Positions 16,997 through 59,827 of a stretch of 64,000 nt of DNA are shown here, in pieces. The first letter of the stretch is position 1. The number at the start of each line of letters is the position of its first letter. A program made the position numbers and the translations under genes. The notes below the pieces were generated by a model that ran no database searches, was not told the origin of the DNA, and was given only the letters and a program-made list of their open reading frames with translations. Source of the stretch: Temperatibacter marinus (lineage in GTDB: Bacteria; Pseudomonadota; Alphaproteobacteria; Sphingomonadales; Kordiimonadaceae); the NCBI RefSeq assembly GCF_031598375.1, contig NZ_CP123872.1, positions 2,290,501-2,354,500 on the forward strand, given 5' to 3'.

Positions 16997-17072
16997 GGTC
17001 CCTTCGTCTAGTGGCCTAGGACGCTGCCCTTTCACGGCGGAAACACGGGTTCGAGTCCCGTAGGGATCACCA
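16997..17072 (+). tRNA. tRNA-Glu (anticodon TTC), copy 1
   Basis: 76 nt. Acceptor arms GGTCCCT / AGGGATC, anticodon loop CTTTCAC (TTC), T loop GGTTCGAGTCC and encoded CCA. It is identical in sequence to the copy at 17110. Confidence 0.95.
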
Positions 17073-17109: not shown

Positions 17110-17185
17110 GGTCCCTTCGTCTAGTGGCCTAGGACGCTGCCCTTTCACGGCGGAAACACGGGTTCGAGTCCCGTAGGGATCACCA
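17110..17185 (+). tRNA. tRNA-Glu (anticodon TTC), copy 2
   Basis: An identical 76-nt duplicate of the preceding tRNA-Glu after a 37-nt spacer. A terminator follows 13 nt later, so the two form one transcription unit. Confidence 0.95.
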
Positions 17186-55780: not shown

Positions 55781-56542
55781 TTAGAAAAAAAAGTCATCTT
55801 GCGTAATACTTGTGGCCTGGACATCTTCAAGAGTTATAGAATTCCCATTGCCGTCATAGATGACTGTATTTGCATCCTCTTGTCGTATGGTGAGATCGTC
55901 AAATTTAAGACCACTCCATGCAAGATCCAGCATATCTTCACCATCCTCGAAGTCAGTGATCACATCATCGCCCCACGGACTGTAGAAAGAAAATTTATCC
56001 TCTCCAGTCCCGCCTTCTAGAGTGTCATTGCCGCCGCTGCCTTTAATGACATCATCGCCTGCACTGCCTTTGATATGATCGTCACCTTGGCTGCCGAAGA
56101 TGCGTGTCTTTTCTTCATAGCCTTCATTTATGCCTTGATCCACTTGAATCAGAGTTATGCCGTCCAATTCTACATTGCTGAAATCATAGGTATTTCCTGA
56201 GGCGAGAGTGATTGTCGTACTCTCTGCTGCAGTGCCATCAATTTTTTCAATATTTCTTAGGTCATCGATGCGAATGTCAGTAGGCCCATCATTTGTTACC
56301 ACGATTTGATCATAGCCAGACCCCCCATCATAACTGTTGAATAGATCAAACTGACTGCCATCTGCCCCAGTGATCAAAATACGATCCTCTCCAAAGCCCG
56401 TAGAGATGGTGTCACTCCCATAGTTGTCATAGACATCATCGTCTCCAGCGCCTGCATTGATGATATCATTGCCGGGGGTGCCAAAGAGTGTGTCATCGCC
56501 GTCAGTTCCTGGGATATAATTAACTGTATCTTGTGTACTCAT
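55781..56542 (-). CDS. RTX (hemolysin-type calcium-binding repeat) protein, small
   Basis: 253 residues. Glycine/aspartate-rich nonapeptide repeats occur near 13-45 (DGDDTLFGTPGND and GAGDDDV) and again near 148-185 (GSQGDDHIKGSAGDD and GSGGNDTLEGG). These bind calcium and form a parallel beta-roll. The C-terminus ends DDFFF, resembling type I secretion signals, and there is no N-terminal signal peptide. It is probably exported by a type I system encoded elsewhere. No catalytic domain is visible between the repeat blocks (about 60-140). Confidence 0.85.
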   Translation of the reverse strand: MSTQDTVNYIPGTDGDDTLFGTPGNDIINAGAGDDDVYDNYGSDTISTGFGEDRILITGADGSQFDLFNSYDGGSGYDQIVVTNDGPTDIRIDDLRNIEKIDGTAAESTTITLASGNTYDFSNVELDGITLIQVDQGINEGYEEKTRIFGSQGDDHIKGSAGDDVIKGSGGNDTLEGGTGEDKFSFYSPWGDDVITDFEDGEDMLDLAWSGLKFDDLTIRQEDANTVIYDGNGNSITLEDVQATSITQDDFFF

Positions 56543-56933: not shown

Positions 56934-57311
56934 ATTCCAACAATCGGAATTGCTTGTCAAAGGCGCTGTGCCCTGAAAGCTCGCGCTGTATAGAACAGCT
57001 TTTTAAAAGGTGCAAGAGGAAAAAATAAAAAAATGAAAAAATTTTATCTGATTCATTTTTCAGAAGCGAAAAGAGTCATAAAAAGAGTGTCTAAACCAGA
57101 AAAATTACGATGAAACGTTTCACCTCAGCCGTCTTGCGATCAACGGTTTGTCAAATGCGGTGGGCTGATATTGTATTATGACTTGAGCAGACATATATTA
57201 AGTGTGTAGCCAAGAGGTGAGAGACAAACTTCATCCAAGAGCAACCGACAGTTAAATATAAAGAGCATTTAAAAGCTCACGCCATAAAAGTATAATAAAG
57301 AGGATAGAACC
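56934..57311. other. Intergenic region before the small Arg-rich ORF
   Basis: About 380 bp of A/T-rich sequence. It must hold the tRNA-Thr promoter (minus) and that of the small ORF (plus). A TTGTCA at 57148 with TATTAT at 57174 is spaced too widely to be convincing. Nothing else is recognisable. Confidence 0.5.
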
Positions 57312-57422
57312 ATGTTTACAACTTTTGCATCGCTGAACCTAGAAGGTAACGCAACACGATCAGCATTTGCTGGTAGTTTTTCAAGCCGTCGCAATCGTCG
57401 TCAAAGACGCGCTAAAGGCTAG
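57312..57422 (+). CDS. Small Arg-rich ORF (36 residues)
   Basis: A 36-residue ORF starts at ATG 57312 with an AGAGGA ribosome-binding site at ideal (7-base) spacing. The first part is neutral and Ser/Ala-rich; the end FSSRRNRRQRRAKG has six arginines in eight residues, suggesting nucleic-acid binding or ribosome slowing. It is directly followed by two stable hairpins with C-rich loops. In Rhodobacter, a small Arg-rich DUF1127 gene precedes CcsR sRNAs with similar loops. This ORF lacks the usual DUF1127 C-terminal motif, so it is not assigned to that family. Confidence 0.6.
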   Translation: MFTTFASLNLEGNATRSAFAGSFSSRRNRRQRRAKG

Positions 57423-57435
57423 AGAATACGAATTG

Positions 57436-57595
57436 GGTGGTGGCTGAAGATTTCCCGATCTGCATTTCCTCCCTCCCTTACGGGAAATAAAGAAGCCACT
57501 AGTCAGAAGCCGAGTTAACAGCTTATACCGGATATATCCCCCCTGTACTTATCCGGTTCCTTCCCTGAGAGCTGCTAACTCGGCTTTATTATTTT
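57436..57595 (+). ncRNA. Candidate structured sRNA with C-rich loops (CcsR/cuckoo-like)
   Basis: Hairpin 1 has an outer stem (57438-57445 with 57494-57501, one G-T pair) and an inner stem ATTTCCCG / CGGGAAAT (57450-57457 with 57481-57488). Its loop carries CCTCCCTCCC at 57468-57477, complementary to Shine-Dalgarno sequences. Hairpin 2 has a 16-bp outer stem (57508-57523 with 57570-57585, one mismatch) and an inner stem ACCGGATA / TATCCGGT (57527-57534 with 57550-57557) with CCCCCC in the loop. It ends in TTATTATTTTT. The RNA could be processed from the small-ORF transcript. The structure is seen; the function is inferred by analogy. Confidence 0.55.
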
Positions 57596-57663
57596 TGACA
57601 ACGCAGGTGCTCAGTTTCTTAATTTTATTTGCAAATATTTTATGCGCTCAGTACATAGATCTT

Positions 57664-58645: not shown

Positions 58646-59827
<1,182 letters not shown>

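Follow-up and report, generated by a model that had tools for sequence, protein, structure and literature searches.

A conserved arginine-rich small-protein gene with 3' C-loop hairpins, built, and probably working, like ccaF1-CcsR, in Temperatibacter marinus

In the window, the 64,000-nucleotide stretch of DNA analysed here, a 36-codon Arg-rich ORF is followed by two stable hairpins with C-rich loops. We interpret the arrangement as a self-contained, probably stress-induced unit, in which one transcript would supply both an Arg-rich RNA-binding protein and a C-loop hairpin array in the 3' UTR (rough probability 0.6). The unit shares its construction with ccaF1-CcsR and, by analogy, probably acts in the same way. 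The comparative basis of this explanation consists of a selected ORF, conserved promoter elements, hairpins that covary in relatives, loops biased toward C, and co-inheritance of the peptide and the RNA.

The small ORF and hairpins of the window

The ORF at 57312-57422 (+ strand) encodes a 36-aa product, MFTTFASLNLEGNATRSAFAGSFSSRRNRRQRRAKG, which starts with MFT and ends in SRRNRRQRRAKG, and the ribosome site AGAGGATAGAACC lies immediately 5' of its ATG. Among the family homologues, the peptides follow the pattern MFTxL...R(S/T)xRRxRR, with the start MFT and RRxRR conserved. The dN/dS of the ORF is approximately 0.1-0.3 in most pairs of related genomes (dN 0.02 and dS 0.19 for G019/G026; dN 0.20 and dS 1.34 for G012/G018), and the small peptide is under purifying selection. 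Searches of Pfam, NCBIfam and PHROGs returned no credible family for it. Residues 5-35 of the window peptide are predicted as one helix with a mean pLDDT of 86, which is weak evidence from a single-sequence model built with no alignment. Moreover, the best PDB profile matches are basic proteins, including lambda-type N, at non-significant values (E 0.4-0.9). The peptide is probably a small, helical, basic RNA-binding protein of the arginine-rich-motif kind.

DUF1127 was considered for this peptide and ruled out. Pfam DUF1127 (PF06568) matches 0 of 26 members of the peptide family, the C-terminal signature LxxLDDRxLADIGLSRxxI is missing from all 26, and profile-profile comparison with DUF1127 (hhalign) yields a probability of 2.9%, the alignment spanning nine basic residues. 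Additionally, PF06568 exceeds the cut-off in none of the 30 genomes of the window's bacterial family and in 68 of 190 genomes sampled from the whole class; an E. coli positive control also matched. As judged from its sequence, the peptide is not a DUF1127 protein.

Hairpin 1 (57434-57505) is formed by the stems 57438-57445/57494-57501 and 57450-57457/57481-57488 and presents a 23-nt loop (57458-57480) that carries CCUCCCUCCC, with CCTCCCTCCC at 57468-57477. Hairpin 2 (57506-57596 with its tail) is formed by the stems 57506-57517/57576-57587, 57519-57524/57569-57574 and 57527-57534/57550-57557. Its C-rich loop at 57535-57549, TATCCCCCCTGTACT, includes CCCCCC, and its C-rich inner bulge contains CCTTCCC. 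The hairpin ends at 57587 and is followed by the T-rich tail ATTATTTTT; in the window, hairpin 2 looks like it doubles as a terminator. The region has an MFE of -62.8 kcal/mol, compared with a shuffled mean of -45.0 (z -4.16; 0 of 200 shuffles as good), and CCTCCC occurs twice within 250 nt 3' of the ORF's stop versus 0.10 expected. The initial annotation had described a 36-codon ORF with a ribosome-binding site, two strong nested hairpins, C-rich loops and a T-rich tail on the second hairpin, and each of these elements is borne out. A canonical CCTCCTCCC array elsewhere in the window genome was sought and ruled out, the genome containing single scattered sites.

The window genome is the sole member of its genus among the 30 family genomes compared, and its own hairpins therefore rest on position, ORF homology and folding energy rather than on covariation among close homologues. 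The covariation alignments described below leave out the window's own hairpins, and the RNA model built from relatives gave no match to the window genome at E <= 0.1.

Upstream of the unit lies a tRNA-Thr gene on the opposite strand, and a ccrM-like DNA methylase is encoded downstream at 58709-59827. The nearer downstream neighbour, rnhB (RNase HII, Pfam PF01351; 57664-58341, + strand), was judged to be outside the unit, which is located elsewhere in genus g3. Farther away in the window, a minus-strand ORF at 55781-56542 with repeated GGxGxD-like motifs probably encodes an RTX-type calcium-binding protein, and two adjacent tRNA-Glu (TTC) genes at 16997-17072 and 17110-17185 have identical Rfam scores.

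Conservation of the unit and its promoter

To follow the unit across the family, we searched the window genome (one contig, 3.18 Mb) and 29 further genomes, locating homologues via synteny with rnhB and via profiles. Plain DNA similarity among the relatives gave chance matches only, four of which were inspected. With a profile from six peptides, the small ORF is recovered in 27 of the 30 family genomes, each time upstream of rnhB, and most homologous ORFs have GCGAGGATA or a close variant as their ribosome site, GAGGATA being the element of both the window and the family. Conservation of the ORF and hairpins in relatives had been named as a check on the initial annotation, and the result is affirmative: the ORF and C-loop hairpin unit is present in all 30 genomes, in 27 upstream of rnhB and in 3 elsewhere, and its hairpins covary.

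The weakest of the 27 rnhB-linked peptides had poor E-values with the six-peptide profile and later entered a larger profile, A3; the A3 values of G003 (3.9e-13) and G006 (4.2e-9) are therefore partly produced by construction, since weak members trained it. These peptides are supported by their common start, position, ribosome site and promoter. For genus g3 (G002 and G009), the unit lies away from rnhB, with peptide and RNA matches approximately 100 nt apart. The peptide-profile matches are weak (E 9e-4 and 0.02) and the RNA-model matches have E-values of 4e-4 and 1e-3, neither profile nor model having been trained on these two genomes; when read, their DNA contains an ORF, ribosome site and hairpins of the same kind. 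For G027, an incomplete genome in which rnhB was undetected, the copy is elsewhere and has the loop CCCTTCCTCCC. Across the 248 genomes of the order that were searched, strong matches of the larger peptide profile are confined to the window's family, and weak matches outside it were counted as chance. The peptide and the RNA are co-inherited, and the recurrence of homologous ORF and hairpin units across the family indicates that the arrangement in the window is more than chance.

Additional copies were also observed. The window genome has a second peptide gene (L232, C1:1805225-1805335, minus strand) that encodes MFVQLVQKNTYARLNGHSVTAGEYSRRRQRRVKRFQSAA; on the same strand it is preceded by an ORF of 641 aa resembling a peptidase and followed by one of 249 aa that looks secreted. 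It has the same ribosome site, a weak promoter match and a terminator-like hairpin without a C-rich array; thus, the peptide can exist without the array. A second complete unit with its own promoter boxes occurs in G007 (L236, C14:173600-173716), where the C-rich stretch CCCCGCCCCCTCTCCCCTTCCCC lies inside a hairpin loop. In two sister families, G048, G043 and G041 contain candidate small ORFs (L123, L120 and L122) directly upstream of rnhB, whose start resembles MF(T/S) or whose end resembles WRxxRRARR, and the G048 ORF is followed by a hairpin with the loop GCATCCCTCCC. These ORFs are possible older relatives of the unit, as candidates only.

Both hairpins covary in the relatives. For hairpin 1, a hairpin at the same place was aligned on its own in 13 genomes of similar sequence; 94% of cells are paired, changes on both sides affect 17 cells compared with 5.8 in shuffles, and pairing falls to 34-37% when the partner is slid by one column. 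For hairpin 2, the corresponding second hairpin in 19 genomes has 92.5% of cells paired and 19 cells changed on both sides compared with 6.6 in shuffles, and a one-column shift of the partner reduces pairing to 54-55%. All 27 rnhB-linked copies fold better than the shuffle mean (z -1.5 to -5.3). Most of the 19 aligned genomes have an almost unchanged hairpin 2 loop, CCCCUGACCCUAGCCCC, while the inner stem varies. Many copies continue with one to three extra hairpins and a terminator, several of these loops being C-rich. Over 31 copies, C outnumbers G among unpaired bases (1020 to 220) and is outnumbered by it among paired bases (1074 to 1306), counts that are approximate owing to automatic, imperfect trimming of the arrays.

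The loops had been annotated as C-rich and able to pair with Shine-Dalgarno sequences. For the window, this stands insofar as one loop bears CCUCC; across the family, CCUCC was ruled out as a conserved anti-SD feature, because CCTCCC is found in 13 of 31 copies, at 14 sites versus 8.5 expected, and the conserved loop is CCCCUGACCCUAGCCCC instead. CCUCC-type sequences, which overall show no clear enrichment, occur in the window, G020, G006, G007 and G027, and in several genus-g9 genomes at later positions of the array.

The upstream regions of the 31 copies align on TTGCGGTGAAGCGTGC-N6-TGNGGTGGGTGCT-[AC]TTGAA-N16-CCTAAATTA, to which TTGCGATCAACGGTTT-N6-TGCGGTGGGCTGA-N1-ATTGTA-N16-CATATATTA corresponds in the window. 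In the latter, the direct-repeat boxes TTGCGATCAACGGTTT (57134-57149) and TGCGGTGGGCTGA (57156-57168) are 22 bp apart and precede a promoter core with a -35 element ATTGTA (57170-57175), a 16-nt spacer and the -10 element CATATATTA (57192-57200). The alignment relied on a fixed consensus selected visually from these very sequences; its scores are thus descriptive and do not amount to a test. G027 departs from the consensus, and the fit of G001 and of the second copy in the window genome is weak. When the family was scanned with at most one mismatch, the double box was almost confined to these units. This points to an activator that is dedicated to them or narrow in range, and the boxes at 57134-57168 are its probable, predicted sites. 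The core [AC]TTGAA-N16-CCTAAATTA resembles the RpoH1 promoter of S. meliloti, which PMC4843759 quotes as CTTGAA-N15-16-CCTATAT; an alternative sigma-70 reading of the window promoter, with 17-bp spacing to TAAATT, fits as well. The probable 5' UTR (57207-57311, from a putative start) contains the element ACCGACAGTTAAAT from 57244 and the ribosome site GAGGATA. The family form of this element, ACGACAGYAAA, is common to most copies. In many relatives, TGTAGC at the 5' end can pair with GCTACA farther down; a partner for this pairing was not seen in the window.

Proposed function and alternative explanations

Under our preferred explanation, the ORF and hairpins would be transcribed as a single unit under stress control, and RNase E would cut the transcript, as in ccaF1-CcsR, into an mRNA and stable hairpin RNAs, whose C-rich loops might pair in trans with G-rich stretches of other mRNAs, for example ribosome sites, and the peptide might bind the hairpins or other RNAs and tune maturation or turnover. 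Several points count against the explanation: complementarity of the CCUCC anti-SD type is not conserved family-wide, the L232 peptide copy lacks a C-rich array, and the promoter may be an ordinary sigma-70 promoter. More tentatively, and with odds somewhat below even, the unit could be an independently evolved counterpart of CcaF1-CcsR, in which an unrelated Arg-rich peptide binds and processes its own array and the CCCCUGACCCUAGCCCC loop serves a new target class in a family devoid of DUF1127.

The main rival is a role in cis only, in which the hairpins would be binding sites or stabilisers on their own mRNA, bound by the peptide in the manner of N-boxB; the outcome would be autoregulation or a more stable mRNA, and no trans-acting sRNA would be made. 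Co-inheritance of the Arg-rich peptide with the hairpins in nearly all genomes agrees with such a role, and the much stronger conservation of the hairpin 2 loop relative to the inner stem would likewise suit a site bound by protein; the single predicted helix (single sequence only) and the non-significant PDB matches to basic proteins such as lambda-type N (E 0.4-0.9) point the same way. However, arrays of several C-loop hairpins exceed the need of one binding site, and L232 is a peptide copy without an array. We consider this rival unlikely, while ranking it first among the alternatives.

Shared ancestry with the Rhodobacter and Rhizobiales loci, by which the unit would be a diverged true cuckoo/CcsR member whose DUF1127 gene degenerated or was replaced, is less probable still. 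The order of parts, the RpoH1-like promoter and the CCUCC-bearing loop of the window match this reading, but the peptide has no DUF1127 similarity, the family lacks DUF1127, the conserved loop differs (CCCCUGACCCUAGCCCC), and the rnhB neighbourhood of Rhodobacteraceae contains no such unit. A leader-peptide attenuator of rnhB, in which stalling at the Arg codons of the ORF end would decide termination at the hairpin, fits the ORF and terminator-like hairpin immediately upstream of rnhB in the window, but is very improbable because the unit lies 2-3 kb from rnhB in several relatives and elsewhere in genus g3, the second peptide copy of the window genome adjoins another neighbour, and the peptide, with its conserved N-terminus MFTxL, is under purifying selection.

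Comparison with known systems

In R. sphaeroides, CcsR1-4 derive from the 3' UTR of ccaF1, which is transcribed from an RpoHI/RpoHII promoter; cleavage of the precursor by RNase E yields C-loop sRNAs and an mRNA that encodes a small RNA-binding protein, and both RNase E and CcaF1 take part in maturation (PMC10253847, PMC8625941). Similar to this locus (CIN1), the unit described here comprises a short Arg-rich protein gene, consecutive C-loop hairpins and a terminator, with an RpoH-type promoter there and an RpoH1-like one here, to which sigma-70 also fits. In contrast, the protein here is not DUF1127 and belongs to a clade without DUF1127, the conserved loop is CCCCUGACCCUAGCCCC rather than CCUCCUCCC in every loop, and a conserved double box lies upstream of the promoter.

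The initial annotation had regarded the arrangement as cuckoo-like. Its architectural part holds, since the ORF, C-loop hairpins, terminator and RpoH1-like promoter recur family-wide, and at least two consecutive stable hairpins followed by a terminator come after the ORF. Assignment to the cuckoo family is not supported: the loops carry CCUCCCUCCC and CCCCCC in the window and CCCCUGACCCUAGCCCC in the family instead of CCUCCUCCC in each hairpin, and the upstream ORF is not the short co-transcribed DUF1127 gene of that family. Rfam, at gathering and relaxed thresholds, gave no relevant match to the unit. With both the CCUCCUCCC loops and the DUF1127 partner absent, our claim is that the unit probably works like a cuckoo/CcsR locus, not that it is one.

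The SmelA075 and SmelA099 sRNA families of Rhizobiales have three to four C-loop hairpins with variable stems and conserved loops bearing CCUCCUCCC (PMC3927594). The array here likewise combines C-rich loops and variable stems with conserved loops, whereas CCUCC is limited to the window and some relatives. The peptide resembles arginine-rich-motif peptides of the lambda N type in being short, basic and probably helical with RRxRR, a likeness of composition only, as the PDB profile match is not significant (E 0.6).

Collectively, a small basic protein paired with C-loop RNAs is already known, the protein being DUF1127. That a family devoid of DUF1127 has the same architecture, built around an unrelated protein, suggests a useful combination, one that may have originated repeatedly, and the family-wide copies with a fixed loop motif make cooperation between peptide and hairpins testable by comparison and genetics.
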